From a virus: a stretch of DNA of 64,000 nt. The notes beneath the pieces are model-generated. The model was given only the letters and a program-made list of their open reading frames with translations. It made no database searches and was not told the DNA's origin. The first letter of the stretch is position 1. Every line of letters starts with the position of its first letter. The stretch covers positions 20,770 through 84,769 of IMG/VR virus record IMGVR_UViG_3300046318_000144; one strand, given 5' to 3'. This document shows positions 4,423 to 61,527 of this stretch, piece by piece. The position numbers and the translations under genes were made by a program.

Positions 4423-4423
4423 T

Positions 4424-5089: not shown

Positions 5090-5242
5090 AACTCTCATGT
5101 TTCTTCTCGCAATCTCTCGCAAGAACAGTGACCACGTATAGCTTTTTACAGACACTACACATATAGGGGTCTGGTTTTCTAGTATTCTGTTGCAATAGAG
5201 TTCTTTCGGTCAAATGACTTATATCTAATTATCTCACGAAAG

Positions 5243-5267
5243 AAAAAAGACGAGCCTTAGCTCGTCT
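5243..5267 (-). terminator. Intrinsic terminator of the primase-helicase gene
   Basis: A perfect 8-bp stem (5248-5255 with 5260-5267) encloses a 4-base loop, and on the minus strand it is followed by a run of six T (5243-5248). It begins six bases past the stop codon of the minus-strand primase gene. On the plus strand the T-tract is lacking, so it should act mainly on minus-strand transcripts, although the hairpin also separates the converging plus-strand fibre operon. Confidence 0.85.
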
Positions 5268-5272
5268 ATTCT

Positions 5273-7870
5273 CTAGAAGTTTCTAGCAAATCTAGTTGCT
5301 TCTCCCCAGTTTACTTCTGCTGATGGCACTGGTCTAGGGATAAGTAGTCGGTTATGAATATCAGCTCTAGCACCTTGCCCCTCAATCTTTAGACCACGGT
5401 CTGACAGTTTACGCTGAAACCCAATCTGAGATAGCGGACGCTCTCCACGCTCTTCTGACCACATGCGGTATACAGAATATAGAGATTTAACCGAAATTGA
5501 AGCTCCCTCTGATTCCAAAGTTTCTTCATCCAAGAACATACCAATACGGTCTTCATTCTTTCGATAGATTTCAGCCGCGTCTTTTACAGCGGCACACCAG
5601 CCAAGAGGATCTCTAGCTCCAGAGTTTAGATACTTAATTGCACCCTCTACTGCCCAAGCAAGTACCGCTGGAAGACCACCCTCTGGGTCAGCTAAGTAAG
5701 CCTTCAAATCTGGATCTGGGTTCTCAGCAACATAACTCCAAGGAATCGGGCGAAGACGACGCCACATAGCTTCATCATTAATGATAGGTCGGTGGTTAGT
5801 AGTAACCCACAGCTTACCCTGAGCCTTAAAAGTAAATGGCTTTTCACCAGGAGAACGGCCTTGAATAGTAGATGAACCAGTAAGTTGCTTGATTTGATTC
5901 TCATTGATACGCTCTGACTCTGGCAACTCATCTACCCAAATCATACGCTTACCACGGAGTTCAGCTAGGTAGTACTGGTGAGACGAGTTATTACTATTAG
6001 CAGCAGCTAGCATCTCAGATGGTAGAGTTCCAGCGTATTGCTCAGTACCTAGAGCTTCAACTACAGTTTCAACAAAAGTATTCTTACCAGAACCAGCTGG
6101 ACCATACACAAGGAATAGTACATCCTGATTACTCATACCAGTTAGTGAATAACCAACTGCACGCTGAATCCAGTCCTGAAGTTCCTTGTCTCCACCAGTA
6201 GCAAAGTCAATAAACTGCTCCCAGCGGACATTTCTAATTCCAGGGGTATAGGCAACAGGGGCACGCTTAGTGATGTATAGCTCTGGCTTACCTTTAACTA
6301 GCTCTCCAGTGCGTAGATCAATAACACCATTAGCAACACCTAGCAGGTTCAAGTCACCATCCCACTGCTCTACACCAACAATAATACGTGGGTCAGAGAT
6401 AGCACTACGAACCATACCACTTAGACGAGTGTTAGATTTAGCTTGATTAGCCCATTTGACTAAGTCTTGCTTTTTCTGCTGGTCACTTTCTCCCCAGTTT
6501 GCAGTCTCAGCTGCAATCATTGGAGAGATACGCTTAGCTAACTCAGACATTTCTAGTTCTTCTTGATCTGGCTTCCAATATGTTCCATTCCAGTGGAACC
6601 AGCCAAGACCAACGCTGTAGCGGATAGCAGAACCATAAGCATCAACTAGACGACGACCATTACCGACATCAGTAAGAGTACGTTTACCAGGGATACCACC
6701 ATCATCTTCCGATACAGCATCGACGTCACTAGGGATATCAATGTTTCCGTTACTAGATGCGTCTCGAACTGATAAACCATCACTCACCAACTGCGAAATA
6801 GCATCTCCATAGTTGGTTGGCTTTGACTGCTCCGACTTACTAACTCCCTCATTCTGAGACTGTTCAGCCCACTTCTGACCCTGCTCCCAGTCAGATAGCC
6901 CTGGCCACATTCTGTCAGTTTTAGGGTTTTCGGCAACAAAATCCATAGCACGTCGAACATGCATTAGTAAAGAGTTTGGTCCCTCCAGCTCCATTGGTGG
7001 ACGGACCTTCTCGTAGTTAAATCGAATCATCATTGTTTCGACCATCATACGAGCATCTGAAGATGTTCCATATTTATTAGCTAAAGCGCACCCTAGTTTA
7101 TAGATATCTACAGCACGAGAACCCTCATCGATTCCCTCTTCAATAAACTTCTCGATATTGACTTTTTCGCCACGATATTCGAGACCAGTCATCCAGTCCC
7201 AGGTGCCATCGCCATATGAAGATGAACCAGACTTTTTATTACCTTTACGGAGAGCTTCTAAAAGTTCTTCAGGGGCTTCCGCCATTTCAAGCTCCCATGG
7301 AGCATGACCTGGCTTCCAATCATAAATATTCCCAGAGAAGTGGCGCGACGGGGAGATTAGCACATACCCATTGTGCTTAATGTCAATACCTTTTAGACCG
7401 CTTTTTTGTAGGTTACCTACTAGCTGCTCATCTGGACTGCACTTGTAGTAGAGGTGACGACCACGAACTACTTTACCACCGATGTTGTACTCACCAGTAA
7501 GGGCCTCGACTGTGGGCGGGAGGTTTCCATCTACAAGATTTTCAAAAATTTCAAAAGAGTTTTCACCATCAGAGCGTGGGTCAATATCTATTACTAGGAA
7601 TCCAGACGGTGCGCAAAAAACACCAATGTTATAGTCAGGATTCTGGTCCCACCACGTGGAAACTAAATAACGGTCATCAGTAGCTTTATCGTTCCACTGG
7701 CCAATAGCTGGGTGCTTACCAACATCTTTTGGCTCATTGTGAGGACTGTTACAGGTGCAGCGACCTCCAGCATCGATACCGTGGCACGGCATAATCTTCC
7801 AGCCTTGACTGGCATACCAAGATGCACCTTTAACAAGTCGACCATTGCCTGCGGACTCCCATGAAGACAT
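5273..7870 (-). CDS. Bifunctional prim-pol primase / SF3 (D5-type) helicase
   Basis: This 865-residue replication protein has two enzymatic parts. The N-terminal ~200 residues are an archaeo-eukaryotic primase (prim-pol) domain: Cys/His-rich lead (GGRCTC, GKHP), catalytic acids D95 and D97 in VIDIDPR, and the conserved His139 in GRHLYY. The C-terminal half is an SF3/D5-like ATPase with Walker A GPAGSGKNT (K596), Walker B WVDE (D647-E648) and a TTNHRP sensor followed by the arginine-rich MWRRLR. It would unwind and prime phage DNA at the fork. It is the only gene of its transcription unit except a possible 12-codon leader, and is followed directly by a hairpin terminator. Polymerase, SSB and recombinases lie in a separate minus-strand block. 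Confidence 0.92.
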   Translation of the reverse strand: MSSWESAGNGRLVKGASWYASQGWKIMPCHGIDAGGRCTCNSPHNEPKDVGKHPAIGQWNDKATDDRYLVSTWWDQNPDYNIGVFCAPSGFLVIDIDPRSDGENSFEIFENLVDGNLPPTVEALTGEYNIGGKVVRGRHLYYKCSPDEQLVGNLQKSGLKGIDIKHNGYVLISPSRHFSGNIYDWKPGHAPWELEMAEAPEELLEALRKGNKKSGSSSYGDGTWDWMTGLEYRGEKVNIEKFIEEGIDEGSRAVDIYKLGCALANKYGTSSDARMMVETMMIRFNYEKVRPPMELEGPNSLLMHVRRAMDFVAENPKTDRMWPGLSDWEQGQKWAEQSQNEGVSKSEQSKPTNYGDAISQLVSDGLSVRDASSNGNIDIPSDVDAVSEDDGGIPGKRTLTDVGNGRRLVDAYGSAIRYSVGLGWFHWNGTYWKPDQEELEMSELAKRISPMIAAETANWGESDQQKKQDLVKWANQAKSNTRLSGMVRSAISDPRIIVGVEQWDGDLNLLGVANGVIDLRTGELVKGKPELYITKRAPVAYTPGIRNVRWEQFIDFATGGDKELQDWIQRAVGYSLTGMSNQDVLFLVYGPAGSGKNTFVETVVEALGTEQYAGTLPSEMLAAANSNNSSHQYYLAELRGKRMIWVDELPESERINENQIKQLTGSSTIQGRSPGEKPFTFKAQGKLWVTTNHRPIINDEAMWRRLRPIPWSYVAENPDPDLKAYLADPEGGLPAVLAWAVEGAIKYLNSGARDPLGWCAAVKDAAEIYRKNEDRIGMFLDEETLESEGASISVKSLYSVYRMWSEERGERPLSQIGFQRKLSDRGLKIEGQGARADIHNRLLIPRPVPSAEVNWGEATRFARNF

Positions 7871-7908: not shown

Positions 7909-8095
7909 AATTCTCCCAAATATGTAGTAATAGATTACAGCAAAAGTCGACAAATGTAAAACTTAAGCCAAAAATTTTTAAACTGACCGAAAATAGCTGA
8001 CCTAACAGCTTGCCGAAATCAGGGCGACCCAGATGGGGTAAAATTATAGGAACGAACCTAATCGATTCTCTACACAGTAAGAACTATTATAGACC

Positions 8096-8461
8096 ATGTC
8101 AGTGGAACTTATATTAACCATAGCAGCTGTAATTACAGCTCTAGGTGTAATCATCGGATCAATTGTGGCTATCTACCGAGTAGCCAGACGCATTGGTGAT
8201 GCTATCGGCGTTGACCGCTCTGGAAGAACTCTATCAGAAAGATTAGAGCGAGTAGAGCACCAACTTTGGGAAAATGGTGGAAGCTCGTTGGCTGATAGAG
8301 TAAACAACATTGACACTGCAGTTATTAAAATTTCAGCAGAAGTAGAGTTCATAAAAAATTTAGTAGTAGCGGCAGCGCAGATTCCAGCTCCGCAAGTCCA
8401 TCTAGTAGAGGAATCGACGACACAACCAGTACGTAAAACACGTGCAAAAAAGGCTAGTTAG
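8096..8461 (+). CDS. Small membrane-anchored coiled-coil protein
   Basis: The 121-residue protein has one strong N-terminal transmembrane helix (residues ~4-28), then a basic stretch, a short helical segment with an ENGGSSLADRV motif (residues ~60-70), and a Lys/Arg-rich tail. Small phage proteins with one TM helix followed by an NGGSSL-type motif are common in actinophages, where they are annotated as DUF2746-like or holin candidates; the function is unproved. It is the first gene of the plus-strand island. There is no Shine-Dalgarno before the ATG, but a TATTAT box ends five bases upstream, so a leaderless or near-leaderless transcript is possible. It might be a holin or an anchor for membrane complexes. 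Confidence 0.7.
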   Translation: MSVELILTIAAVITALGVIIGSIVAIYRVARRIGDAIGVDRSGRTLSERLERVEHQLWENGGSSLADRVNNIDTAVIKISAEVEFIKNLVVAAAQIPAPQVHLVEESTTQPVRKTRAKKAS

Positions 8462-9988: not shown

Positions 9989-11062
9989 ATGAAAATAGCT
10001 GTATATACAATTGCATTAAATGAAGAGCAGTTTGTTCAATCATGGTTTGACAGTGCTAAAGAAGCTGACTATCTGTTAATAGCTGATACAGGTTCTACCG
10101 ATAAAACTGTAAAGAAAGCTAAAGCCCTCGGGATTAATGTAATCAATGTTGTAGTAAAGCCTTGGCGATTTGATATGGCTAGAAATGCTTCATTAGCAGC
10201 TATACCAGCTGATATAGATTACTGTATTGCTTTAGATATGGATGAAGTACTGCTACCAGGGTGGAGAGAAGAGCTCGAAAAAGCGTTATCTCAGGGAGCA
10301 ACCAGACCTAGATACCAGTACACATGGTCCTGGGAAGATGAAGAAAAGGGCATACCTGGACTTCAATACGGCGGAGATAAGATCCATGCTAGAAATGGCT
10401 ATAGATGGAAGCACCCAGTGCATGAGGTACTGACATCTTACGGTGACTTGCAAGAGACCCAGGTTTGGGTTGACCTAGAGATACACCACCACCCAGATAA
10501 CTCAAAGTCTAGATCCCAGTACATGCCGCTGCTAGCGCAGGCTGTAGCTGAGGATTTATCAGACGATAGAAATGCTTTCTACTATGCTAGAGAGCTGTAC
10601 TTCTACGGAATGTATGAAGATGCTATCAAAGAATTTAACAGACACTTACAGTTACCGAGAGCAGTTTGGCCTCCAGAGAGAGCAGCATCTATGCGATATC
10701 TTGGTAAAATTTATGAGACCTACGGTAATTTTGAAGAAGCTAAACTCTGGTATACCCGCGCTGTAGAACAATCTCCAGGGCGTAGAGAGCCTTTTGTAGA
10801 TTTAGCTAAGCACTATTATGCCGTCCGCGACTGGGAAAACTGCCTAAAAGCCTCGGAGGCTGCGTTAGAGATTCAAGAAAAACCATTAGAATACTTATGC
10901 GAAGCTGAGTCTTGGGGAGCACTGCCTTACGATTTGGCAGCACTATCTTGCTATAACCTTGGCAATAATCCTAAGGCTTTGGAGTATAACGAAGAAGCTC
11001 TTAAATTAGATCCAAGTAATCTAAGACTTATAGAAAACCATCAGTTTTATTCTGCCGATTAG
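9989..11062 (+). CDS. GT2 glycosyltransferase with C-terminal TPR-like repeats
   Basis: The N-terminal domain (~1-190) is a GT-A family 2 fold: NEEQ after the first strand, D33-T-G-S-T-D, and the metal-binding D83-M-D85-E triad. An HHHPDNSKSR segment lies near residue 165. The C-terminal half is built of TPR-like helical hairpins (for example EAKLWYTRAVEQSP near residue 250 and a final NNPKALEYNEEALKLDP near 335). The layout resembles SPbeta SunS-type glycosyltransferases, where the helical part holds an acceptor peptide. It may glycosylate a virion protein, modified DNA or a host surface component. It ends 35 bases inside the convergent WhiB gene, so the two 3' ends overlap antisense. Confidence 0.85.
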   Translation: MKIAVYTIALNEEQFVQSWFDSAKEADYLLIADTGSTDKTVKKAKALGINVINVVVKPWRFDMARNASLAAIPADIDYCIALDMDEVLLPGWREELEKALSQGATRPRYQYTWSWEDEEKGIPGLQYGGDKIHARNGYRWKHPVHEVLTSYGDLQETQVWVDLEIHHHPDNSKSRSQYMPLLAQAVAEDLSDDRNAFYYARELYFYGMYEDAIKEFNRHLQLPRAVWPPERAASMRYLGKIYETYGNFEEAKLWYTRAVEQSPGRREPFVDLAKHYYAVRDWENCLKASEAALEIQEKPLEYLCEAESWGALPYDLAALSCYNLGNNPKALEYNEEALKLDPSNLRLIENHQFYSAD

Positions 11063-40499: not shown

Positions 40500-42497
40500 T
40501 TAGTACTCTACAGCAGCTGCGGTAGCGCCACCAGTGGTGTCGCGAAGTGCTGCAGCAACACCGTTAACCGAGATGCTTGAGGTGATCTTGAGAGACTCAA
40601 TACCAACCTTAGCCACGTTCTCGAAGGTCTCAACGAACATCTTGTAGTCGTTGGTGCCAACCAGTGACGAGTCACGGATGATACCAAGGTCAAGAGTTCC
40701 ACCGTCAAGGAACAAGAATGTTCCCTCGGCGAAGAGATACCAGCTGAATGTGTCTGGGAACTCAAGCAGACCAGTTGCACCCTGAGCACCGAAGTAGTTC
40801 AGGTCTGGAGAAGCAACGAGTGAAACGTTGCTGTGCGATAGGTAGCCGTCAATCTCAGCCTTCGATACTGACAGAGTACCATCACCAGGCATAGCCAGGG
40901 TGAGGTCAGCTGCCATTGCATCGTATACCCACTGAGGAACAATAGCCTTCAGCTGAGTAGTTGCAGAGATGCGGTGACGTGAGCGGTAAGCAACTGCAGC
41001 ACGACGGATCTGTACTAGGAAGTCACGACCGAAACCGATAAGTGACGAAGTAGTAACAGCGGTTGAAGCGTCACCAATCTTGGTAAGAAGGTTTACTTCA
41101 GCCTCGCGTGCGTGCTGTACAAGAGCTAGCTCGTTGTGACGAGCAATCAACTCTGGGTAAGCACGAGTCATCAAGTTACCGAACTGGAGCTGTAGGGTTA
41201 CAGCGTCAGTTGAAACAGTCTGCTCTGCAGCAGCTGAAACGGCGAGTGATGACTTAGTTGCTGTATCAGGGTCTGCGTCAACTGCAGCAGTCCAGATACC
41301 AACGGCGTCAGCGTAGTCACCCGAAGCAAAGCTTGGAGGAGTTACGAAGCGGATACCGCCACGGTCAGCCTGGAAGCGAGGGAGTGAGTCACGGATTGGA
41401 CGCTCGGTGGTTGAACCAAGACCGAAGATGTCATACTTAACCTCGAAAGGTGCAGCGTGACCACCAGAAGCAACAAGTGCTTCCTGGCCAGAAACGGCAC
41501 TAATCTTCAGCTGGTTTGCCTCTGAATCGGTTGTCAGAGTGCGTGACTCTGGGAACTGAGTGGTGATAGATGCAACAATGTGCTGCTCTCCATCTCCACC
41601 GTTGACACGACGAAGCGAGTGGATACGCTTTTCCATAGCCGAAGCTACTTCGTTCATGTCGTTAATTGTGCTTCCCGCTGTGTAACCAGGGATGTCAGCA
41701 CCAGCAGTAATTGCAACTGGGGCCTCTGTTACCTGAATTACAGGCTGACGGTCAGCTGGAGCCTCGAAAGGCTGTTCTGCTGCGGCGGTCACGGTTGCCT
41801 GCTCTTCCTGCTCTTCTGGAGCAATAGTGTTTTCTTGGGTTGATGCCTCTGAGCCTTCAACAGCTTCTGCTGCAGTTTCTGAAGTTTCTTCGGCGGAGAA
41901 TTCTGCCACTGTGGCAGATGCCTCGGTTGATTCTTCAGTAGATTCCTCTACTGCGTCTTCTGGGTCGCTAGTCGACAGTTCTGATCCGTCTTCTTCGATT
42001 GTTGATGCTGTTTCAGTTTCCGAAGCGAAAGCCTTTTTAGGTTCCTTCTCTTCTTCTTCTTGGGTCTCTCCGATTTCCTCTTCAGTGGTCTCGGGCTCTT
42101 GGCCTTCGATCTCTGCAGGAGCTTCCTCTACTGGAGCTGCCTCTTCAGGCATCTCTTCAGTAGGGGTCATTTCCTCTGCAGGAGTTTCCTCTTCTGGGGT
42201 CATATCGGCTAGTTCCTCTCCATCAGTTGCGACGTCTTCGGTGCTTTCGCCCTTAACGCGTGAGATAGCCTCAGCAGCCTTGGCAGCTAGCTCTGCAGCT
42301 AGTGCCTCGCGGCGTGAAAGCTCACCTCGCACTGTGTCAAGTGCATTAGCAAGTGACGTCATAGCATCAACCGTCTCAGGAGTCGGCTCTTCGCCTTCGA
42401 CCGATTCAAACTCGCTAACGATCTGTGACTGAAGTTCGCCGACTTGTTCGTCGGTTAGCTCCGCCATAGCGTCAAGCTGGGTATTGATGTGGTCCAC
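40500..42497 (-). CDS. HK97-fold major capsid protein with long acidic N-terminal (scaffold/delta) domain
   Basis: The start is a GTG at 42497 with an ideal AAGGAGGT four bases upstream. The 665 residues divide in two. Residues ~1-260 are very rich in Glu, Ala, Thr and Pro, with an N-terminal helical region and long EEE/PEE runs, and are probably a delta/scaffold-like domain. The C-terminal ~375 residues follow the actinophage major capsid pattern (FRxRHR-like segment IRRAAVAYRSRHRISATTQL near residue 510, VPQWVYDAMAADL, late FETFENVAKVGI region). The N-terminal part is presumably cleaved by the large maturation protease encoded upstream. The strong ribosome site and hairpin signals match high expression. 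Confidence 0.88.
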   Translation of the reverse strand: MDHINTQLDAMAELTDEQVGELQSQIVSEFESVEGEEPTPETVDAMTSLANALDTVRGELSRREALAAELAAKAAEAISRVKGESTEDVATDGEELADMTPEEETPAEEMTPTEEMPEEAAPVEEAPAEIEGQEPETTEEEIGETQEEEEKEPKKAFASETETASTIEEDGSELSTSDPEDAVEESTEESTEASATVAEFSAEETSETAAEAVEGSEASTQENTIAPEEQEEQATVTAAAEQPFEAPADRQPVIQVTEAPVAITAGADIPGYTAGSTINDMNEVASAMEKRIHSLRRVNGGDGEQHIVASITTQFPESRTLTTDSEANQLKISAVSGQEALVASGGHAAPFEVKYDIFGLGSTTERPIRDSLPRFQADRGGIRFVTPPSFASGDYADAVGIWTAAVDADPDTATKSSLAVSAAAEQTVSTDAVTLQLQFGNLMTRAYPELIARHNELALVQHAREAEVNLLTKIGDASTAVTTSSLIGFGRDFLVQIRRAAVAYRSRHRISATTQLKAIVPQWVYDAMAADLTLAMPGDGTLSVSKAEIDGYLSHSNVSLVASPDLNYFGAQGATGLLEFPDTFSWYLFAEGTFLFLDGGTLDLGIIRDSSLVGTNDYKMFVETFENVAKVGIESLKITSSISVNGVAAALRDTTGGATAAAVEY

Positions 42498-42621: not shown

Positions 42622-45600
42622 TTAGGTAAGGAGTCGGAGCAGTTTGCTCATCTCAGATTGAACTTCACCCTGAGAGTAAACATCTGCTCCAGACATGTAG
42701 GATTTCAGATTAGCGGTGGCAACATCTGCATCCTCTTTACCGATCTTGTCTTCGACTCTAGAAATCATCTGATCGATGAGATCCTTAAGTCCCGACGGTA
42801 GATCGCTAAATCTTAGTTTTTGCGCTTCCTGACCAAAAGGTAGTGGTAGGTTGGCAATTACACGGCCCAGTTCGCGAGCAGTGTTTTGGACATTCTCCAA
42901 AGCCTTAGGATTAAGTGCTTTACTATCCAAACGGTCAATCATTCCGAGTAGCTCGGAGCTAGCCTTCGCTGAGTCAACATAGTTTCCAGCAAACTCCATA
43001 TCTTCAGCAGCCTGAACCTTATTAAGAGCATCCTGTAGACCAGCAACACCTAGGTCTTGCTTTAGACGAGCGAGAACTTTACGGTACTTACCCTTAGCAT
43101 CACGAGGCTGAGTCACACCAGAGATGTACTTGGTACGACCCTCTTCGTCGTAGGCATCCTTAGCAGTAGTCTTACCAGCTTTAATGTCTTCAGCTAGTTT
43201 GATCTCTTCTTCAGTCTGCTTGTCAGCTTCTATTTTCGCTTCTTCAAGCTTCTTAAGATCTTCTTCAGATATTTGGTCATCAGGACCCGCTGCAGTGAGG
43301 CTAGAGATTCTAGAACGCATGCTAGCAATCATTGCCTCTGCATCCATAGAGCCAGCTGCCTTCCAGTTTTCTGGGATAAGGTCAGCCTTACCTAGAGCAC
43401 GAGCACGCTTGCGAATGTGTGTACGAACCTTTGCACGATCTTTAGGAGTTGATCGACCATATGCCTTAATAGCATTCTTTAGGTCTGACTCGTTACGGAT
43501 TGGGTAAGAACCATCTGGAAGAGCGTGACCCTTTTCAGCTAGATCCTTACGCTCTTCTTCCGAGATAGATGCAAGCTCTGCAACAGCAGATGCCACTAGA
43601 GCACGCTCTCTCAGTTCCTCTGCCTTAGCTGCAGCAGCTGTAATAGCGTATGTACGGGCTGCTTTCTTAGCATCCTTAATACGAGAACGTAGGTCTGGAG
43701 CGTTAGAAGCCAGTTCCGACAAGTTCTGGGCACGGATAGCTAAAGTAGTGAAGGCTTGGCTTCTAAGGATAGCCATATCCTGAGCACCAGCAGCCACAAG
43801 AGCCATAATCTTTCCAGATGCAACTAGAGCACGAGCAATTGGGAATCCTGGAACGTTAACCTGACATACAGCAACTAGCTCTAGTGAGCCACCGATTGGA
43901 CGCCAGTCACCAGAAGGAGCAGATGCACGTAGGGCACGAATCTGAGCCTCGTTAGCATCTGGGCGTAGTGAACCAGCTACCCAAATACCGTACTCGTCTT
44001 CACCAGCATGAACATCAGCGATAGCAGATGCAGTGTCGTCGTAGTGCTTAGCAGCCTGAGCAGCATCCGCACGCAACGATGCGTGTCCACCAGCGAGGGT
44101 TAGCTGACCAACTGGAACATCTCGTCCCGCATCAGTACGGCAAACGCCAGTGTGGAAGTAAGCATACTTGCTACGTGAGCGAGGAGGCTTAGTTGCGCTA
44201 GGCATACCAATGTGGTTTACATGCCATGCAGCAATGTGACCATAGATACGACCACTAGGGTCTACAGTCAGTGGTGTTGCCTTGCCAAGGTTTGGGTTAT
44301 TGAACCACTCGTCTGGTGGAGTCATTGGAATAGCTGACTCTAAGAATCCAGAACCAGAAGCGGTTAAAGCTTCAGCTGTTGCGAAAGAATCGAACGACTC
44401 TTCCTCATAGACTCCGTCTTCTGGAATCAATGTGTCCTCCTGGTCTCCCGCATTGTTTTCATCAATATTGATGACGCATTCTTGGAATGCTGGCTTAGCT
44501 ACAATTGTAGCAGCCATTACACGGGCGTGATTTATGATGAGTTTTTGCTTGCCCATTTCGGTTTCTTTTTTATCTAATTCCGAAGCGGTGTCGTCTTTAT
44601 GATTCTCTTCAGTTGCCTCAAACTGATCTAGATCAGCAGAAACTCCACGAATAAATCCGTGTCTGACTAGTCGTTCTGCTTCCCTACCGTAAGGCCCAGT
44701 ATCAAATACACCACGAGCATTACCAATGCCACCGTCGATACGCTCTACGTAATCAATTCGACCAACTACTACAGATCCTTCGTGACCGTCACCAGTCTTA
44801 ATCTGCCACAGTAGTGGTAGTGGTAATTCACGAATCTCTATAGATTCGTTATTGAATTTTCTTCCGTCTCCAGATTCAACATTCTCTGGTAGAAGTAGTG
44901 GAATGGTGAAAGCTGAACCATAACCCATTGGGATAGCACCAGCAGTTATGGCAAATCTAGAACGTGCAACATCTGCAGTCGCAGTTAGAACTGCCTTAGA
45001 GATCATTGCTTCATCAAAAGCCTGTTCTGACTCAAACATTCCAAATGCTCGATTGTTTCTACGTCCAGGATTCATCCTGCTTCCAGTGTAAACACCAGTA
45101 GCATCCTTGTGACGGAGCTGGCAGTAACCCTTAGCACGAACACCCATGTACTTAGATAGGTGGCGAACGCAACGCTTCCAGTCGCCAGGAGTTCCCCAGC
45201 GGATTTTAGCAGCACCCTTGCCACGAGTCCAATACTGGCGAAGTTCCTCTGCATTACCACGGTTACGGTCTAAACCACCAGCAGCAATTAGTGCTTGGAA
45301 TTCATCATCTCCACACTTAGCTAACTCCTCTAGAGCATCTACTATCTCTAGGTCTGGAGTCCAAGATCCCTCATAGAGATCATCTTCCTCTGAGTGGATA
45401 TCTTCGATAGGCATAAGCATATCTTTGTCAGTAATATGGGTAGGCTCACCAATGTTCTCGCCCCACACTTCTTCCATTAGGAACTCTTCTGCCCCTAAGT
45501 TACGGTGTGATTTATCAAGCTTAGCGTGGGTAGATGTGTACATACCCAATGCGTCCTTGTGGCGAAGCTGGCAGTAGCCCTTCGCTCTAATACCAAGATA

Positions 45601-54300: not shown

Positions 54301-56017
54301 CTTTACCAAATGCTGAGCGTAGGAATTTGTAACCAAACTGAGAAGCAGTGGTATTAGCTAATGTATTATCTGGAACCTTAGTCTTTGCTTCGTTAGCATT
54401 CTTTCGGTTGAACTGTAGGTATAGGACTCTAGCCTCTGGCTTGAGACGCTTAAGAGCTTTAGTAATTGCAACGAATACAGTGGTCTTACCAGCACCAGCA
54501 CCAGCAAGTACGGCAGTGTCTTTATCAGCTAGAACAATAGCTGCTGCAATATCACTCTGCTCCTGGCTTGGCTCGAAGCCGAAGTCCTCGGTCCAGTCTT
54601 CTGGCTTTGCCATCTTAGCTAGTTCTTCACTACTAATCTTGTCTCGAACTTCTTGTTCTGGACCAGTAAATGTGGCAACAGTTGCAGGGTCTACTTCTTC
54701 AGGATTGTCATCCTCTTCAGAAGCAACTACCTTAGGTTTCTTTTCAGGCTTAGCAGCTTTTTCAACCTTAGCCTTAGGGGCACGCTTTGGTTTCTCTGGA
54801 GTGGCAGGAGCTTCTGGAGTTACCTCGGCTGCAGGTGTAGCGTCAGGGGCAGCATCCTCATCAAAGACGATCTCATCTGGGTCAAAGTCAAGAGCATCAT
54901 TAAGTACCTGGTCTACATTTACATCTTCACCAGCACTTGCTTTTTCAAAAGCTTTAGCAGTGGCTTTCTCGAGAGCCTTAGCCTTTTTAGCCTCTGACTC
55001 GGCTGCCCACTGGTCTTGGCGTAGCTTTCTAAACTCATCTGGGGTTACTGGAGTTATACCATTTTCCTGAGTAGGGATGGTACCTTTATATGCACCAGGA
55101 CCTCTACCAGAGTCAATACTGTCAATGAGCTCGTATGGAGAACCTAGAGGTCTACCCTCTTCGTCCTGCTCGCTTTCGATGTATCTACCTTCATAGAGGT
55201 AACCATCACCACGAACGTGAGCCTGGACTAGCTTTCCAGTTCTAGGCATGCTGAGGAACAGCTCATCGCCTTCTTCTACATTTTCTAGCCAATTCTTGCT
55301 GGCAACAACAATTCTCTTAGGCTTCTTTGCCTTCTCTGTTTTAGCCTTAGCAGGTGCTTTAGCTGGAGCTTCTGCAGTAGGAGCCTCTGGAGCTTTCTTC
55401 TCTCCACCAGCAAAGTCATCAGGATTTACACCAGACTCTTCTAGGAGCTTCTTTGTTTCCTCTGGGTTAGTAGTCTCGTAACCGCCAGGCATCTTAGCGA
55501 TAGGTGACTCTTCGCGACCAGCCTTCTCGGCAGCACGCTCTTCTTCTGTAAGCTCGCCCTTAGCTAGACGCTCATCTTCAGGTGTAATGTCAGTGCGAGG
55601 AATCTCGTCAACATAAGGAACTTCATTGTCTGCAAGTTCATTTATTTCATTACCGAAGATATCTTTCTTAGGCCCTGTAGAGAGTCCCTGCTTCTCTAGA
55701 TATTCCTTAGGAATAAGACCTTCGAACTGCTCCATATTGTTGGAGTCAACTTCATAGACACCACTCTTGATACCCTTGTCATCCTGGCCCTGTACAAGAA
55801 TACGACCCTTACCTGGCTTACCAGCAGGACCGACGTACACACCGTGAATGGTAGCAGCAATTAAGCGACCACGGATTCGGATCTTGAATAGGGTCCCGCG
55901 ACCCATCTCCATCCACTGGCCGTATTTATCGCGAGGCTGAATTCTCCAGAAGCCTCTGTTGGCACCATCATTAGTACCAATCATGGCTAGCAGGGGGGAG
56001 AGTTGATCTTCAGACAT
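48392..56017 (-). CDS. Giant polyvalent protein: SF1 (UvrD/PcrA-like) helicase plus HExxH zincin
   Basis: I prefer the ATG at 56017, which follows AGAAGG, over a TTG 21 bases upstream; the product has 2,541 residues. The N-terminal ~480 residues contain two SH3-like segments, Ala/Pro/Lys-rich linkers and acidic stretches. An SF1 helicase follows: Walker A AGAGAGKTT (K511), motif II DEAQD (D765), QSIYRF, TAHRAKGLEW and motif VI YVALTRAKKR (R1168). The C-terminal third has an SH3-like GDRVIIKNN stretch and a zincin site HELTH (H2349-H2353) with acidic downstream candidates. This composition, among head genes, matches the polyvalent proteins described by Iyer and colleagues, thought to be packaged and injected to act on DNA and host proteins. 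Confidence 0.85.
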   Translation of the reverse strand: MSEDQLSPLLAMIGTNDGANRGFWRIQPRDKYGQWMEMGRGTLFKIRIRGRLIAATIHGVYVGPAGKPGKGRILVQGQDDKGIKSGVYEVDSNNMEQFEGLIPKEYLEKQGLSTGPKKDIFGNEINELADNEVPYVDEIPRTDITPEDERLAKGELTEEERAAEKAGREESPIAKMPGGYETTNPEETKKLLEESGVNPDDFAGGEKKAPEAPTAEAPAKAPAKAKTEKAKKPKRIVVASKNWLENVEEGDELFLSMPRTGKLVQAHVRGDGYLYEGRYIESEQDEEGRPLGSPYELIDSIDSGRGPGAYKGTIPTQENGITPVTPDEFRKLRQDQWAAESEAKKAKALEKATAKAFEKASAGEDVNVDQVLNDALDFDPDEIVFDEDAAPDATPAAEVTPEAPATPEKPKRAPKAKVEKAAKPEKKPKVVASEEDDNPEEVDPATVATFTGPEQEVRDKISSEELAKMAKPEDWTEDFGFEPSQEQSDIAAAIVLADKDTAVLAGAGAGKTTVFVAITKALKRLKPEARVLYLQFNRKNANEAKTKVPDNTLANTTASQFGYKFLRSAFGKDSRAMGARYRSIETFHKSGANAIAKFLELDDINIKGKNQGPAAHGQLVINAVENYSNSADEKIGPQHVNFDHINGPDMTPEDEAKAKAKIVESANKYWEDLTSVPVWEKVQAKNEDGVKLFDEKGDPIYEQSIDKKTGQPAVDAQGNPKPKMAVVKGATAISPAVATKMWTLTNPNIADFKHNGRPITHVFMDEAQDTVPAIEKVLMDNVRAGNIKLSMVGDNAQSIYRFMGAENAIGRYSDGLSEAALNLSTTRRFGTKISTAANSLLNLLGEKYRLKSTNEGYGEGEILTSDNIDGLDGTTAVVVRNNMGGFAQMKKFLDRGKKVAVTSVLKQDVDDALENLKWILEDKDSRDKQPSVVHPDLKDIYSKESLFAEMNRNPTGKAAYWARLVTKFEEDLKPLESIMSRVIVQPERHIDLADITNLSAADGDSGEFAGIKWEVYGNKLILDGNLDAELTGLKGATFRDLVIGGKNNGSGNSFSKNDPSILKPDGDLPTWRTKRNADGNTKYELVIDEDSDRELYLNNIANLFKLDTGDTEDFDVLVTTAHRAKGLEWDNIIIGDDFGSPKVTDPETGAVAFPDDQELDLAYVALTRAKKRLFMGSLKWTENYQGKDGLARANKEMQREPDFNMDVVDSEEKKQSQILEQTAAKEAAIPKEDRVLNALYAMDDNGEISFDTDVPETAPVAKSGPGGDKRTHKFLKDWIEQLSTPGGYTGVFGGNRWNIKENKDGSITLRARSNEDVLGSRVYKNYDELAADFPALVSRGKEVNKDRLKKIVGPADKDGSIAKMIEDGASGEEIFDALNATGDLIDAIENGQINELALEHGLRRYNSGNKVKRLVPKRTRKISSKKTATPQPPANEPSALWKAVPEDRRDDGTSNIGRNENIQEVLDKWGGGSGDASKDIKLILEKIVPGAKVQEDGSVTYYRETFLDEFGPGAGDEHTLELSFKEAKNNSWRVKVKVTNTETGESQEYWHYSAHKSLKSLFGEPGKSTAGLESLISKITRDPAKTKYKSNPKEDKKYRENYGGIIGEIELLRAGRYDRLLQMAKLGLGKSDTTLKLRTPEEETSLALYGRAQVTHTDGKNFLRQKRSEVGSILESLDSGDYAEARSLLATHLRSLPDTQAARDTARDVLRGIMEQRYVNSSKRELDQMMEQFNGYLDSNMPAQDDITTHRPHTDKNGQDLQVGDRVIIKNNVGETAVGTVVRKLKEHTPSINSGEGEEGEEGDEEQQSYVYGDYVKVEFANGSVLPMASKKMTKTAPDTKPTSSAPWLYEDDLTFFRAEQQPDKYRVDRASGQIFDLDTNTVIYKGVGTESYGQTEVAENLAENQKIYNDTGDLLGQVVGKPKSGTARDGSRVTAVKYRIPGGNGATDTLVVKEGSKVNTSPLKPEVSNRDAIPSPAATTDVAKRAAALGISSGQQGRKPSKTISKNSADNTPENAEAIKPISGKNVENTWAVAPTEEATNIKNEVVAMGEEVWSGVPERMKDILRQKGYDIPDDATYDDIARAALDSLAKVGNDYAVARRAALDLEENTINGIKDSKSGVSGVFNEMRAAGYVKTEDGKEVIDVAKLSKDLRKAGVKGLPYYLEDEDSDFSAKKPMLAFAYKALTDPAVTEEAKKVYFDQYSKDKAQERAKATDYLDDVHQAERVAAKEALEAAGVQFDNVSLDEFDGLLVTAGKKAPLNSKSTIKAAEALSEAFKHMPRSNILKMIEHLKENNLKLEVKAGVKRGHFAPLKNGKGYEIHLSNRRGKDRRIAAKEEGLNPATDVALHELTHFTQKLDPNQRAIEHAWLYDRAVVDAGTDNERLVPIINLNKGGSEQALAIKGMSQPYMAKAYPFLNRKAFLNPNDEASEVSTMAMQDLFTNPGIASGAYGLSVMGLDPETGEDRLYPGAFYDPETGKYYRSSSKKTEIEGIKGVFGRNRDEGTDFNVKHLATGMLLALNDWSPTEGFGPGNAVVPNEEK

Positions 56018-56091
56018 GTAAATCCTTCTGTATAGCAAAAAGCTCTAGAGTATCTAGTTAGAATTTTACCTGTCTTTTTAGATAGTGATTA

Positions 56092-56916
56092 TTACGACGC
56101 GTCTAGATCCTTGATAGAAGTGAGGACATCCTTGAACTTGTTCCAGGCTTCGTGCTGCTTCTTGCTACCGATCTCTACATCATTCTTGGTAATGAAGTCG
56201 TAAGCATCAGTGTTCCACTGCTCGACGTCCTTGAGAGATGTCAATACTTCAAATGATGTAGCTCCAGAGTCGATCATCTGACCGATAGAGCCATCAGCAT
56301 CGTATTTAGCAATCTTCTTCTTAGCGATAGCCTTAAGGTCAGGAGCTACTTCTGGGTCAACCAGACCATTGAGAGACTCCATAAGTGCCTCGAATTTAAA
56401 AACAGCAATTTTTAGGTCGTAGTTCTCTTCCTTGATGGTGTCCTTAGTGGAGAGTAGGTGCTCTTGCTCTTTGAAGTACTTATTACCTTTCAAGTAGTTA
56501 GTGATAGATTCTCTAGAATCTCCACGGTTAACCATACGAGTTAGTTTCCCACCCTTATCAAAAGGATTAACTAGAGTATCTGGGTCAGTGTATCCGTAAA
56601 CCTCTTGAAGGAAGTTATCTCTAGAAGTATTTAGTTCTGAAGCAGCAAGCATTTCTTCTAGAGACTTGCTCTGCTCTGTAGTGGCATCTGCCAACTCTGG
56701 AGAGATAGTTCCAGAAGATACTAGAGCATCAAGACGAGCCTGAGTATGAATATACTCGATGCTGTATCTATCGCTTAGTAGAGCTTCAACAATAAGGGAA
56801 GACTCTCGCTCATCGAGGGAGCTAAATTCCTGAAGTAGCTTGCGAGAAAGTTCTGAGTCTTTGTAAATAGCAAAAACTCTTTTTTCTAGCTTTTTGATTT
56901 TAGACTGATCTAGCAT
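56092..56916 (-). CDS. Helical head-region hypothetical protein
   Basis: The 274-residue protein is mainly alpha-helical and charged. It has a segment DADGSIGQMIDSGATSFEVL near residue 214 that recurs in the giant helicase protein (DKDGSIAKMIEDGASGEEIF) and, more loosely, in its own GGKLTRMVNRGDSRESITNYL region near residue 121. It lies between the Dps gene and the giant helicase gene. A structural or packaged-partner role is inferred from this shared module; no enzyme motif is seen. Confidence 0.6.
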   Translation of the reverse strand: MLDQSKIKKLEKRVFAIYKDSELSRKLLQEFSSLDERESSLIVEALLSDRYSIEYIHTQARLDALVSSGTISPELADATTEQSKSLEEMLAASELNTSRDNFLQEVYGYTDPDTLVNPFDKGGKLTRMVNRGDSRESITNYLKGNKYFKEQEHLLSTKDTIKEENYDLKIAVFKFEALMESLNGLVDPEVAPDLKAIAKKKIAKYDADGSIGQMIDSGATSFEVLTSLKDVEQWNTDAYDFITKNDVEIGSKKQHEAWNKFKDVLTSIKDLDAS

Positions 56917-56931
56917 TGAGACTCCTTAGTA

Positions 56932-57396
56932 TTAGCGAATGCCTAGTGTTGCACGTAGCTGCCAGTTCCACTTCTGATGAGCATCAATGCGCTCAGCTAG
57001 GAAGTTAGCAATGCCTTGCTGATTTACAGCGTTAGCTTCTTGGAAGGCTTCATCGAGACGTCCAAGTACAGCTTTATTGTTGTCGTACAGAGACTGAACC
57101 ATAAGCATCCCGTTACCGTCCGAGATTCTAGGCTGGTCGCATATGCATGACATGTCAATAAAGTCTTGTAGAAGATACGGGGCATCAAAGCCAAGCTTGA
57201 GGATATCCTCAGCTAGCGGGTCTATAGCACTGTCAACATCTTCATAGATTTCTGAGAAGAATCCATGCAGCTGGGTGAACTCTACTCCAGAGACGTTCCA
57301 GTGGTATCCCTGAGCTAGAGATTTAAAAATAACTAAGTCGCTAAGAACTTTAGCTAGCTTCTCGGCTAATTGGACGTTTCCATCAACTTCGTGCAT
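56932..57396 (-). CDS. Dps-family ferritin-like DNA-protection protein
   Basis: The 154-residue protein is a clear Dps by its ferroxidase motif: H32-W-N-V-S-G, H44, D59 and E63 (SAIDPLAEDI), aligned with the Listeria innocua H31, H43, D58, E62 ligands; the residue at Listeria D47 is Ser48 here. Dps proteins form dodecamers that bind DNA and detoxify Fe(II) and H2O2. It has no long basic N-terminal tail. It is encoded ten bases after the portal, with AAGGA before its ATG. It may protect DNA in the capsid or infected cell from oxidation, or be packaged with the genome. Confidence 0.9.
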   Translation of the reverse strand: MHEVDGNVQLAEKLAKVLSDLVIFKSLAQGYHWNVSGVEFTQLHGFFSEIYEDVDSAIDPLAEDILKLGFDAPYLLQDFIDMSCICDQPRISDGNGMLMVQSLYDNNKAVLGRLDEAFQEANAVNQQGIANFLAERIDAHQKWNWQLRATLGIR

Positions 57397-57405
57397 TTGA
57401 TTTCC

Positions 57406-59187
57406 TTATTGGGTTGGTTCCGCTAGAGGTGCAGCTGGAGCACCAGATGGTTGGATTGGTTCAGCAGGGGTTGGTTCCGCTAGAGGTGCAGCTGGAGCAG
57501 CACCCTCTGGTGCAGGCTGACCACCTTCAAGGATCTGCTGAATGTCTTCTGGAACTGGAGCACCACTTTCCTGCTGAGCTATATCACGAGTCAGGTTCAT
57601 AACATCTGGAGCGACTGCCTTAAGCATGCTCTCTGTCAGCTCTGGAGTGATCATACCCTTAGAGATAATTAGTCGAAGGGCTAGCTCTACTGGAGTAGGA
57701 GCATCTGCTTCAGAGAAGCCATGAGCCTTACGCCAAGTGTCGTAAGATACCGCCATCTTCTCGAACCCTGAGTCAGCGTCTGCAGCTCGGTCGTTACGGG
57801 TGGCAACCTGCGATGGGTCATACCATATGACTAGACGATCTACGTCAGCCTCTGGGTACCCATTAGCAGTCAGATATGGACGCAGGTATACAACTGTAAG
57901 AGCATCAGCAATCAGAAGCATCAGCGGTTCGATGTGTGCCTTGTAGAGTGACTCGTCAATCTGTAGAGCATTTGAGTACTTAACGTTGGCAAGACCTGTA
58001 ACGATGTCTTTTGGAACATCAAGACCCTGCATGATACGCTCTAGAACTCGGTCTGCACGCTGAGCCAAGGCAGGGTCAAAGCTACGCTCAAACTTAAACT
58101 GCTTAATCTTGTCGCCAAGCTCTGCAGGACCACGAATAATAAGTGGAACTACAGCGCTCGCCGAGTCTTCATCCTTAATAGGAGTAGTCATAGCATCGAT
58201 GAGCTGGTCTTCAAAGTCATCAGCAGCTTCTTCGGTGTTGTAGACCTCGTTGTACTCGCCATTTTCATCGTATGGATAGTCTGGGTCTGGAGACGCTGCT
58301 ACTGAAAGACCGTCAGGCAGGTACAGAGCACCCGCATTGAGGCGAGAACGGGCCGTAGCGCGGAAAGTACGGTTCAATAGCAGTAGTTCCGCACAAAGGT
58401 CCAAGAGGCCGCGTAGCGAGCTGTCAGCCTCTTGCGAATATCGTGGGTGAGCCTTCCAGATTCGACCAACAAACGCCCCCTTAGGGAGTCTGATTGCATC
58501 TGGGTTAGTGTTAGACATCATTGATGAGCCACCGCCACCGACCTCGCGGCGTGGGTTGATGATGTAGTTACCCTTTTGATCAACCTGAAGTTCATCAGTC
58601 GAGCGGATATCCCAAGTCTCTGGAAGTCCTGAACCAATACGTTCTGGAATCTGTACTAGGTAGCACTCGCCAGTAACCTGCAAGTTTAGAGCAGCGTCCT
58701 TAAGAAGACCAGCCTGGCCTCCATAAGCAGAGCTTAGACGTGCAAGTGCACGTTCAGCTGCCTGAGCAAGTCTTTCGTCAATCTTCTCTGATTTACGAAC
58801 TGAGACGGGAGCTTCAGCTGCATTATCAACTACCGCAGAGTAGAGACGAATGCGTGATACAACAGATGCTACTAAGTTGAAGGCGTACTTGACTTCACCA
58901 ATTGAGTCGTAATACTCCCAGGCCTCTGACTGCCAACTTGAAGATGCTGACTGTCTACGATTTTTGAAGATTGCAGCTTCGCCCTTGTCATCAAGTTTGA
59001 TCTGAGCAGCTGCGGCAGTAAGTGGGCGTGGTGTATTGAAGGCCAAGGCTTGTGGGTACGTAATACCAAACGAATCTAGCGAAGGTGGAGTTAGAGATTG
59101 TGCAGAAACAGGAGCGGATGCACGAATACCTGCAGAACCAACTGCTGGTCGTGCTCTGTTATTTTTTTGGCGCTTGAATATGCCCAA
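57406..59187 (-). CDS. Portal protein
   Basis: The start is a TTG at 59187 with AGGAG six bases upstream. The 593-residue product follows the HK97/actinophage portal pattern: SEAWEYYDSIGEVKYAFNLV near residue 86, YLVQIPERIGSG in the wing, a LLLNRTFRATARSRL crown/stem helix near 271, and the VPKDIVTGLANVKYSNALQID clip-to-stem transition near 390. The C-terminal ~40 residues are Ala/Pro-rich with a repeated APAAPLAEPT unit. It forms the dodecameric ring at the packaging vertex. Location: TerL, two small genes, portal, then Dps. Confidence 0.9.
   Translation of the reverse strand: MGIFKRQKNNRARPAVGSAGIRASAPVSAQSLTPPSLDSFGITYPQALAFNTPRPLTAAAAQIKLDDKGEAAIFKNRRQSASSSWQSEAWEYYDSIGEVKYAFNLVASVVSRIRLYSAVVDNAAEAPVSVRKSEKIDERLAQAAERALARLSSAYGGQAGLLKDAALNLQVTGECYLVQIPERIGSGLPETWDIRSTDELQVDQKGNYIINPRREVGGGGSSMMSNTNPDAIRLPKGAFVGRIWKAHPRYSQEADSSLRGLLDLCAELLLLNRTFRATARSRLNAGALYLPDGLSVAASPDPDYPYDENGEYNEVYNTEEAADDFEDQLIDAMTTPIKDEDSASAVVPLIIRGPAELGDKIKQFKFERSFDPALAQRADRVLERIMQGLDVPKDIVTGLANVKYSNALQIDESLYKAHIEPLMLLIADALTVVYLRPYLTANGYPEADVDRLVIWYDPSQVATRNDRAADADSGFEKMAVSYDTWRKAHGFSEADAPTPVELALRLIISKGMITPELTESMLKAVAPDVMNLTRDIAQQESGAPVPEDIQQILEGGQPAPEGAAPAAPLAEPTPAEPIQPSGAPAAPLAEPTQ
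57411..57499. repeat. 32-base direct repeat at the 3' end of the portal gene
   Basis: Two identical 32-base copies lie at 57411-57442 and 57468-57499, in the Ala/Pro-rich C-terminal coding part of the portal gene, in frame with each other (offset 57 bases). They encode the repeated APAAPLAEPT unit. The perfect identity indicates a recent tandem duplication. Confidence 0.95.
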
Positions 59188-59196
59188 ACCGAGCTC

Positions 59197-59487
59197 CTAA
59201 TCAATCCTTGAAGATATTATTCCAATAATAGTGGATATTGATAACACTAATGATACCACAAATGTTATGGAAGGTGCTAAAAGATAGCAGCCAAACACTA
59301 CAACTGACACCCAAAGCCCTAAGCACCAGTAGCAAGTGAGTAAATATCCAAATTTTGTACTTGGTGGGAACTTTTTCCAAATCTTTTCTCGAACTGATTC
59401 AAAGATAACGTCTTCAATAACTAGTCGAGTGATTCTAAACGCCGCTAAAGATAGAACAATGAGAGTGAACGGGGAAATATCAACCAT
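59197..59487 (-). CDS. DUF1360-like small membrane protein
   Basis: The 96-residue protein has an N-terminal hydrophobic LAAFRITRLVIEDVIF segment, a CYWCLGLW motif (residues ~53-60) and two following transmembrane stretches (VSVVVFGCYLLAPSITF and VVSLVLSISTIIGII). The pattern LAxxRxTRLxxxD...CxWCxGxW identifies the DUF1360 family found in phages and bacilli. The function is unknown. It overlaps the next upstream gene by eight bases and precedes the portal by nine bases. Confidence 0.8.
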   Translation of the reverse strand: MVDISPFTLIVLSLAAFRITRLVIEDVIFESVREKIWKKFPPSTKFGYLLTCYWCLGLWVSVVVFGCYLLAPSITFVVSLVLSISTIIGIISSRID

Positions 59488-59845
59488 TAGTACCCTTAAG
59501 ACCTATAGTTTTGTATGGATTCCAACTTCTGAGCCTAGAACCACACCCGCAAGCACTATCTACTCGGAAGGCAAGCATCTTTCCACTCTCGGTAAGCACC
59601 TTGTGGTCGTCTTTCTTTGATTCTGGACGCAGGTAGGTTGTATATCTCTCTTGGAAGATGATTTGAGGACCATCTGGACTATCTTTGGCAACAATAATCA
59701 TCTCGTCGGTGAGAATAACCCTAGTTGTGCCTACATAAGTTGAACCCTTAGTCCTAGGGTAGGTCGCTATGAGCTCCAAGGACTCTAAAAAGTCAGTTGG
59801 AACGACAACTAAGTGCGCTGGGAACACGTCTTGAAGTATTTTCAT
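59480..59845 (-). CDS. Small conserved head-region protein with CGCGSRL motif
   Basis: The 121-residue protein overlaps the terminase gene by four bases. It is beta-rich and ends with a DSACGCGSRLRSWNP segment (near residue 96), a motif seen in small phage proteins encoded between terminase and portal. The CGCG may bind a metal. The function is not known. Confidence 0.65.
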   Translation of the reverse strand: MKILQDVFPAHLVVVPTDFLESLELIATYPRTKGSTYVGTTRVILTDEMIIVAKDSPDGPQIIFQERYTTYLRPESKKDDHKVLTESGKMLAFRVDSACGCGSRLRSWNPYKTIGLKGTNG

Positions 59846-61242
59846 CGAATTCTAAACACGCTTCCACCCCTACTTGGGTTAATACCAGGGATTTTTCGGT
59901 CTGCAAAGCTCTTTGCACGGATTTTTCCACCAGAAAAGCCAGGTGGTGGCTTGATAAGTAGTGCTGTAAGGGCGTGAACCAGTGCGTCAACGCGGTCAGG
60001 TGACTTTCCTTCACCTGGCACCCAGGAGATCATCTGAGTCTCTAAATCGGCCAAATAGCCTACGTGGTGGACTCTTCCCTGCTCATAGGCGAGCGTAATT
60101 GGCTCTGCACGCAGTGCTTTTCCCTGTTTTGAGTGAACTTCAAGGACTTTAATGGTTGGATCGATGGTGTTGATGGCATTTCTAACCATTGCACCACCCT
60201 GGTTGATTTCAGCTACAACAGGGCAACCCCATTTACGAGCCATCTTTACAACCTGCTCTGCCCATACAGTAGGTGAGCCAAGAATAGAAGCGTCTTCGAG
60301 TACCCAAGCGTTACGTTTGTAGAGGTCACCCTCTGCGCTGGATGCAACTACAACAATTCCGCACTCGTCACGTGGGTTTTCAGCAACCGAAGGGTCAACT
60401 CCGATAAGTCTTAGTGGAGTGGAGAATGGGTACATGGCTTCACGACCAGCTTCGATGGACTCTTCAGTCCAGAGAGCACCTTCCATGGCTTCAAGCATTT
60501 CACCATAAAGCTCCTGACGAGCTAGAGAGGTTCCCTCGTAAACGCCAAGCATTGTGTCGAGGTATGCACCAGCAAGGTTTCCTGCGTTATCCATGGTAGA
60601 ACCACGAGTGATGGCAACTCGACCTGTACGTTCCTCTTCAATAAGTTTGTAGAGAAGCGGGGTACGCTTCGGGGTAGTAGTAACTAGAATCTTTGGCTGA
60701 GTTCCAAGACGTGTACCAACACGTAAGTTATCGAATGCGGTCATACCTGCAGCATCTGGAGTCTGACGCCATGCGGCAATCTCGTCACCCCAGGCGTGTG
60801 TAAACTGCGGACCACGGAGCGAGTCTGGCTCGTCAGCGGTGAAGAGTGAGGCAACGTTTCCATTGGGCCATGTAAGGCGTCGCTTGGAAGGCTCGTAGAG
60901 TGGACGTTCACTGGGAGGCGTGACGTTAAGGATTCCAGATTCACCTTCAACGATAACGTCACGCACATCACCAGCAGTACGAGCAACGAGTGCGAAACGT
61001 CGTTGCCCTGTGTTTGTATATCTGGCTTGCTCTCTCACCCATTCAGATGCGAGTCTTGTTTTACCAAAACCACGACCTGCAAGTACAAGCCAGACGTTCC
61101 AGTCTCCCTCTGGAGCTTGTTGCTCTGGACGACCCCATACGGACCAATCCCATAGCAGTGCCTCTGGGTCCATCCCTGCTAAGGCTTCAGCCCGCTCTGC
61201 CTCGGAAAGTAGAGCGAGCTGTTCCATAATGCTTTTTGACAT
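59842..61242 (-). CDS. terL: Terminase large subunit (TerL)
   Basis: The 466-residue protein has the N-terminal ATPase: Walker A AGRGFGKT (K61), adenine-binding lead WNVWLVL, and Walker B WGDE (D153-E154). The C-terminal nuclease has its first acid in IGVDPSV (near residue 289) and the late PDRVDALVHAL motif near residue 426. It translocates and cuts phage DNA at the portal. It is encoded after two small genes that include the TerS candidate and before the portal with two small genes between. A family-typical length and full motif set make this secure. Confidence 0.93.
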   Translation of the reverse strand: MSKSIMEQLALLSEAERAEALAGMDPEALLWDWSVWGRPEQQAPEGDWNVWLVLAGRGFGKTRLASEWVREQARYTNTGQRRFALVARTAGDVRDVIVEGESGILNVTPPSERPLYEPSKRRLTWPNGNVASLFTADEPDSLRGPQFTHAWGDEIAAWRQTPDAAGMTAFDNLRVGTRLGTQPKILVTTTPKRTPLLYKLIEEERTGRVAITRGSTMDNAGNLAGAYLDTMLGVYEGTSLARQELYGEMLEAMEGALWTEESIEAGREAMYPFSTPLRLIGVDPSVAENPRDECGIVVVASSAEGDLYKRNAWVLEDASILGSPTVWAEQVVKMARKWGCPVVAEINQGGAMVRNAINTIDPTIKVLEVHSKQGKALRAEPITLAYEQGRVHHVGYLADLETQMISWVPGEGKSPDRVDALVHALTALLIKPPPGFSGGKIRAKSFADRKIPGINPSRGGSVFRIR

Positions 61243-61275
61243 GCTACTATTCTAATCTTCTTTTGGAAGATATAG

Positions 61276-61527
61276 TTATTCAGACACCGACGGGCAGAAC
61301 TCTGACTGACTACTTACCTGACTTCTGATTTGACCACTCTCGTGGTACTTAGTCTCTTTGATAATCGTGTGCTGCCAAATTCCGTCTAGTCTGGAGTTGA
61401 CAACACTCTCTCCGCAGACAGAGCAAGTTCCAAACCAGAGATGATTATCCTTTCGGTAACCATCTACTGGGTTTAGAACAGTAAAGTTAGAGCCAATTCC
61501 CTGCTCTCGTACTTCCTTGATGGACAT
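61276..61527 (-). CDS. Hypothetical protein with CxxC zinc motif
   Basis: The 83-residue protein has a WFGTCSVCGESVVNS segment (C35 and C38) and an IWQHT segment, consistent with a small zinc-binding fold that also uses His and perhaps the late Cys. It lies between the HTH gene and the large terminase gene and overlaps the former by one base. Its role is unknown; an accessory packaging factor is possible. Confidence 0.55.
   Translation of the reverse strand: MSIKEVREQGIGSNFTVLNPVDGYRKDNHLWFGTCSVCGESVVNSRLDGIWQHTIIKETKYHESGQIRSQVSSQSEFCPSVSE

Follow-up and report, generated by a model that had tools for sequence, protein, structure and literature searches.

Phage-encoded Dps proteins, such as those gathered in PHROG 3636, have been described in Gratiaviridae (PMC8008677) and in Lactobacillus phages (PMC6669764), where the accessible parts of the two papers present them as aids to the oxidative-stress tolerance of the host; ferritin is also listed among the oxidative-stress genes of freshwater phages in the available part of PMC6802176. 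Eight named phages with a Dps gene were viewed. None had it beside the portal gene, and in 5 it lay among replication or nucleotide-metabolism genes; the gene of Comrade was situated among glycosyltransferase, ribonucleotide reductase, and tRNA genes, and those of S-SRM01 and BS162P1 among mostly hypothetical genes.

In the cellular protein PA0962 Dps (PDB 8ff9), the irons are held by H37, H49, D64, and E68 only, according to the available text of PMC10002758, and in E. coli Dps an additional acid, Asp67, is listed in the low-affinity site (PMC9140674, in the part accessible). In encapsulins with ferritin-like cargo, an HK97-type shell is proposed to enclose a ferritin-like protein (concept described in the accessible portion of PMC7762939). 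They differ from the locus reported here in that EncFtn is not Dps-like, no genome is packaged, and the link in the present case is to a capsid protease.

The Dps gene and its predicted protein

The window analysed, a stretch of 64,000 nt (bases 20770–84769 of an 84,769-base virus record), contained the one Dps copy of that record. The protein predicted for this gene matched Pfam Ferritin PF00210 (2e-15, 57.3 bits against a cut-off of 24.5) and phrog_3636 (9e-23). A monomer model from AlphaFold2 (pLDDT 96.5, pTM 0.91) fitted solved Dps structures with VIA Z values of 21–24 and a Foldseek TM of about 0.9, and the best rows in both searches were nearly all Dps; a ferritin-like four-helix fold with Dps topology is thus predicted. 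The nearest solved relatives by sequence were PA0962 Dps and V. cholerae Dps (3iq1). With PA0962 Dps, the protein shared the fold (TM 0.90, rmsd 1.4) and the four di-iron ligands, but overall identity was 28%, Glu53 of PA0962 was replaced by Ser48, and the gene resides in a phage head cluster. Host contamination was ruled out: phage genes are present on both flanks, and no Dps carrying the exact motif AQGYHWN was found in the genome collection.

The core of the protein had a net charge of -11 and a pI of 4.4, and the N-terminal tail, MHEVDGNV, possessed no Lys or Arg and two acidic residues, so that it was not of the Lys/Arg-rich kind; PA0962 likewise has no basic N-terminal tail in the available description (PMC10002758). 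Among 29 portal-linked relatives, this tail was net negative in 19 and net positive in 4. Against NCBIfam NF006975, the equivalog for the E. coli-type DNA-binding Dps, the protein scored 32.6 bits, below the cut-off of 114.

Gene organization around Dps

As shown in Table 1, Dps belongs to a same-strand series in the order terminase large subunit, 121-aa protein, DUF1360 protein, portal, Dps, 274-aa protein, and a giant ORF with UvrD domains, followed by two small genes, a capsid-protease polyprotein, the major head protein, phrog_779, the major tail protein, and a head-tail adaptor. The preliminary description had placed Dps between the portal and a giant helicase; the portal is indeed directly upstream, whereas the helicase ORF is not a direct neighbour, since the 274-aa gene intervenes. 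It had also proposed expression together with the head proteins, and the common strand, the 9 nt separating the portal stop from the Dps start codon, and the ribosome binding site-like sequence that overlaps the portal stop codon argue for this. The gene after Dps is preceded by AAGGAG, and no excess of promoters was found in nt 56000–61500, where 4 promoter-like sites were observed against a mean of 6.2 in shuffled sequences.

Table 1 Features of the head gene cluster in the window
Feature	Position (nt)	Strand	Remarks
Terminase large subunit	59842–61242	-	
121-aa protein, function unassigned	59480–59845	-	Place kept in relatives
DUF1360 protein	59197–59487	-	Kept directly ahead of portal
Portal protein, 593 aa	57406–59187	-	phrog_776, 6e-107
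RBS-like AAGGA for Dps	57403–57407	-	Overlaps portal stop codon 57406–57408; read in sequence
Dps/mini-ferritin	56932–57396	-	154 aa, ATG start
274-aa protein, no recognised family	56092–56916	-	Separates Dps from giant ORF
Giant ORF, 2548 aa	48392–56038	-	UvrD-type helicase domains; HELTH motif at residue 2356
Capsid-maturation-protease polyprotein, 1656 aa	42622–47592	-	Dps domain absent
Place where polyprotein of relatives holds Dps domain	43440–43558	-	Between protease and AMPDGSYPIRN-type domain; alignment A2; approximate, boundaries estimated
Major head protein	40500–42497	-	phrog_777

Searches of Pfam (at cut-off), PHROGs, and NCBIfam gave no hit for the 274-aa protein; its homologues (29% to 42%) sit behind Dps in loci L005, L016, L023, and L024. 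The UvrD domains of the giant ORF span residues 499–1183, separate from the HELTH motif, which resembles that of zinc proteases. The giant ORFs that follow Dps elsewhere (2016 to 3318 aa) are different: of the nine looked at, 3 have HExxH and none has GxGAGK. Some part of residues 1–700 of the protease polyprotein, a region that includes a phrog_2859 match (79–180), has counterparts about 0.7 to 1.3 kb past Dps in contigs that are unrelated in other respects, e.g. L051, L064, L068, L074, and L081. Elsewhere in the window, nt 9989–11062 encode a glycosyltransferase-like protein matching phrog_13126 (beta-1,4-glycosyltransferase) over nearly its full length (4e-119).

The closest named match of the portal protein was that of Actinomycetia phage DSL-LC01 from Dishui Lake (73.5%), followed by those of Microbacterium phages, and an actinobacterial host is therefore likely. 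Neither DSL-LC01 nor Pumpernickel, the nearest named relatives viewed, has a Dps gene behind the portal gene, indicating that Dps is dispensable.

Dps behind the portal gene in other viruses

Three motif-driven scans of viral contigs yielded 169 viral loci, with some contigs fetched repeatedly. An HMM built from the first 81 sequences called a Dps domain in 168 of them (L328, with none above the threshold, was left out of the counts), and from the 168 domains 108 distinct cores, each with over 110 match positions, were retained. The portal gene was directly upstream of Dps in 61 of the 169 loci, representing 40 distinct 500-nt contexts, with at most 98 nt between the portal stop and the start of the Dps domain; shares of this kind describe the sample rather than viruses in nature. 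Many of the records are short fragments. Since the first scan alone kept 80 viral loci with relatives, the recurrence is above chance. A Dps in a head operon, called unusual in the preliminary description, is so in comparison with the named phages but not within this environmental lineage. The refuting condition set in that description, a lack of Dps near portals in related phages, was thus not borne out.

Nevertheless, the ties of the viral Dps clade are not restricted to heads: 66 of the 108 distinct cores were neither portal-linked nor fused to a protease (see below), and several lay near ribonucleotide reductase, baseplate, or other genes. In a quick tree of 93 rows, computed without bootstrap and with long branches meeting among the outgroup rows, the 56 viral rows formed one group (SH-aLRT 100), as did the 26 portal-linked rows (SH-aLRT 95) and the 3 fused rows (96). 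A long C-terminal extension on Dps itself was observed in three portal-linked loci, L029, L036, and L040. In L036 (nt 3753–5972) and L040 (nt 4063–5220), a DUF5824-type domain is joined to the C-terminal end of Dps in this extension, and a domain of the same type occurs within about 1 kb behind Dps in the portal-linked contigs L010, L017, L023, and L248.

Dps domains within the capsid protease polyprotein

In 12 of the 169 loci, corresponding to 4 distinct sequences (L034, L037, L055, and L309), the Dps domain was inside the reading frame of the capsid maturation protease, ahead of the major capsid protein. In PHROGs, the hits obtained with the frames of L037 and L055 include head maturation protease; the Pfam S78 match of the L034 and L055 frames stayed below its cut-off. 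The domain is in frame between the protease and the C-terminal domains, the latter including one labelled here the AMPDGSYPIRN domain, which is presumably DUF6582. The polyprotein of the window shared 62% identity with that of L055 over the aligned part, Dps being the piece that is absent from the former.

The records with the fused form (L034, L037, L038, and L055, which cover three of the four distinct fused sequences) had one Dps each, as had all 14 records searched. Portal identity to the window was 69% to 70% for the L034 and L037 types, and behind the portal of the L034 record there was a different gene of 187 aa instead of Dps. Independent evidence came from a Foldseek search against BFVD, where three entries called "Prohead protease [uncultured Caudovirales phage]" showed a Dps fold (A0A6J7WPK9, A0A6J7XDU5, and A0A6J7WIS1; 42% to 46% identity to the Dps of the window); in these, a Dps domain is joined to a protein named as a capsid protease; they were matched by name and structure only, and differ from the window, where the two are separate genes. 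A structure prediction for the protease and Dps of L055 (alignment A2, 5 rows) reached a pLDDT of 33.6 and was left out of the analysis.

In HK97-like phages, the protease that matures the capsid works inside the prohead, as do scaffold regions attached to it. The fusion is, for this reason, the strongest pointer to the particle, and the suggestion in the preliminary description that the protein might be packaged gains support from it.

The di-iron site and position 48

The preliminary description had reported a Dps that keeps H32, H44, D59, and E63 but bears Ser at the column of Listeria Dps Asp47. The ORF, the Pfam match, and a phmmer alignment to PA0962 confirmed this reading: the four residues are equivalent to H37, H49, D64, and E68 of PA0962, and the fifth position, four residues past H44, is Ser48. 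Because the alignment is ungapped across the whole ligand region, no other acid falls on the Ser48 column, and the extra acid found at E. coli Asp67 and Listeria Asp47, a frequent though not general feature of Dps, is absent. The four ligands were conserved in all of the 108 distinct viral cores and were also invariant in the 81-sequence set, although this invariance is partly selected, H32 being inside the search patterns and H44 inside those of two scans; the patterns did not cover columns 48, 59, and 63.

At the Ser48 column, the 108 viral cores had G47 A21 E20 S13 Q6 D1, that is, an acid in 21, and the 81-sequence set had G47 A16 S7 Q5 E4 D2. By comparison, the residue was acidic in 60 of 66 cellular Dps domains, and also in 60 of the 64 that kept the other four ligands. 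This control consisted of domains from 65 loci (L175 to L239), among the matches listed, found with the viral profile; it spans two phyla, those of a Stutzerimonas and a Dulcicalothrix genome, and Actinobacteria are outside it. It replaced a narrower set of 80 loci, mostly from Pseudomonas, with Glu in 80 of 80. In seven aligned Dps proteins of named phages the acid was mostly kept (5 D, 1 E, and 1 G), and the solved Borrelia NapA (2pyb) had Gln in the alignment. In one group of viral Dps (L259, L261 to L265, L271, L277, L281, L283, and L290), this column holds Glu and the neighbours match no query protein used.

Grouped by context, the column was G14 A12 Q5 E4 S3 in portal-linked cores (n = 38) and G3 S1 in protease-fused cores (n = 4), and acidic in 17 of the 66 others. 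The Dps of cyanophage Synechococcus phage S-SRM01 (L082, nt 8004–8438), with no head gene annotated nearby, had Gly. A strict rule by which a place in the head cluster excludes an acid was rejected; these counts together with the Gly of S-SRM01 indicate that loss of the acid is characteristic of the viral clade more than of the gene's position. Fisher values for these groupings take no account of common descent and are not read as probabilities. Column 52, Glu52 in the window, was acidic in 88 of the 108 viral and 15 of the 66 cellular domains and would lie, as judged from helix geometry, one turn further from H44 toward the dimer axis. Glu52 is not claimed as a replacement acid for Ser48; there is no strict swap, both columns being acidic in 16 of the 21 cores with an acid at 48.

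Since the residue at this position is not used as a ligand in PA0962, as far as the available text of PMC10002758 goes, the extra acid was not taken as defining a Dps. Ser48 probably leaves the four-ligand site intact, the loss being limited to a carboxylate of low affinity or with a tuning role. Because the di-iron site of PA0962 uses only the four residues kept here, the protein is likely to be a working ferroxidase. The weaker ferroxidase considered in the preliminary description is less likely than was written there, the position not being an iron ligand in PA0962 and the change being common to most of the viral clade; Ser48 is read as a family trait that may tune rather than abolish iron oxidation.

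Possible functions

The chances are judged to be about even that the protein is a mini-ferritin incorporated into the head, where it would clear Fe2+ and H2O2 near the packaged DNA. Made together with the head proteins and presumably assembled as a dodecamer, it would most likely be taken into the procapsid and either stay with the packaged DNA or be ejected with it; removal of Fe2+ and H2O2 would keep hydroxyl radicals from forming beside the genome. This reading is supported by the recurrence of the portal slot in 40 contexts, the protease fusion, the invariant ligands, and the presence of phage Dps or ferritin-like proteins in purified particles. With respect to the last point, the Dps of Lactobacillus phage 521B (ORF156) was detected in CsCl-purified particles by 6 peptides with 48% coverage (Table 4 of PMC6563214, in the part available); it has the canonical Asp at the Ser48 column, its gene is in the replication module, and it could be a co-purified contaminant. 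CsCl-purified virions of Sajous1 contained the ferritin-like gp217 with 10 spectra, and its authors state, in the accessible part of PMC10892097, that proteins with low counts may be contaminants. Both phages are outside the lineage of the window, for which no virion proteomics was found in the literature, and a place in the virion is here inferred. The main rival, possible but judged less likely, is a late-expressed accessory protein that shields the infected host, and the DNA replicating in it, against oxidative damage, with the head operon setting only its timing and amount. Such protection of the host is the published view for the phage proteins cited at the outset, and the position of Dps among replication or nucleotide-metabolism genes in most of the named phages agrees with it, but neither the fusion into the capsid-protease polyprotein nor the slot directly behind the portal in so many distinct contexts would be explained.

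The fusion, with Dps in frame between the protease and the C-terminal domains, would also suit a structural part of the prohead core, in which the protease and scaffold chains would be arranged by a Dps cage whose metal site serves mainly to hold the dimer interface together; the available text of PMC10002758 reports that the PA0962 12-mer needs divalent cations or low pH, so that a metal site can serve assembly. This is nevertheless improbable, as most portal-linked relatives have a free Dps gene, the named relatives viewed have none, and four invariant catalytic ligands would not be strictly required if the role were purely structural. The packaged DNA-condensing protein proposed in the preliminary description is hardly credible for a protein this acidic, with a tail that is devoid of Lys and Arg and more often negative than positive in relatives, even though some bacterial Dps bind DNA and PHROG 3636 is labelled "DNA binding protein". 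Very little probability is likewise given to an iron carrier by which the particle would enter through iron uptake, the "Ferrojan horse" proposed for Sajous1 from its ferritin-like virion protein (PMC10892097): in the accessible part of the same paper the iron-uptake path was not needed in the one host tested, and Dps is associated here with portal and capsid protease rather than with genes of the tail.

Beyond incorporation of a mini-ferritin in this one phage, it is tentatively proposed, with somewhat less than even confidence, that a ferritin-like nanocage is a regular virion part that is brought in by the capsid-protease and scaffold machinery, as a domain in some lineages and as a portal-coupled free protein in others, with a four-ligand site without the usual extra acid. 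It would then be a genome-carrying counterpart of the encapsulin-ferritin systems.

Conclusions

Phage Dps itself was already known; in the literature searched, as far as its accessible text extends, no description was found of Dps fused to a capsid protease or portal, or in an operon with either. Phage Dps proteins have so far been read as helpers of the host cell, whereas the protease fusion, and the portal-adjoining gene found in dozens of phages from the environment, direct attention to the particle. If this is true, virions would have a chemical protection of their own for the DNA packaged in them, and the long-noted resemblance of phage capsids to encapsulins filled with ferritin would gain a second link.
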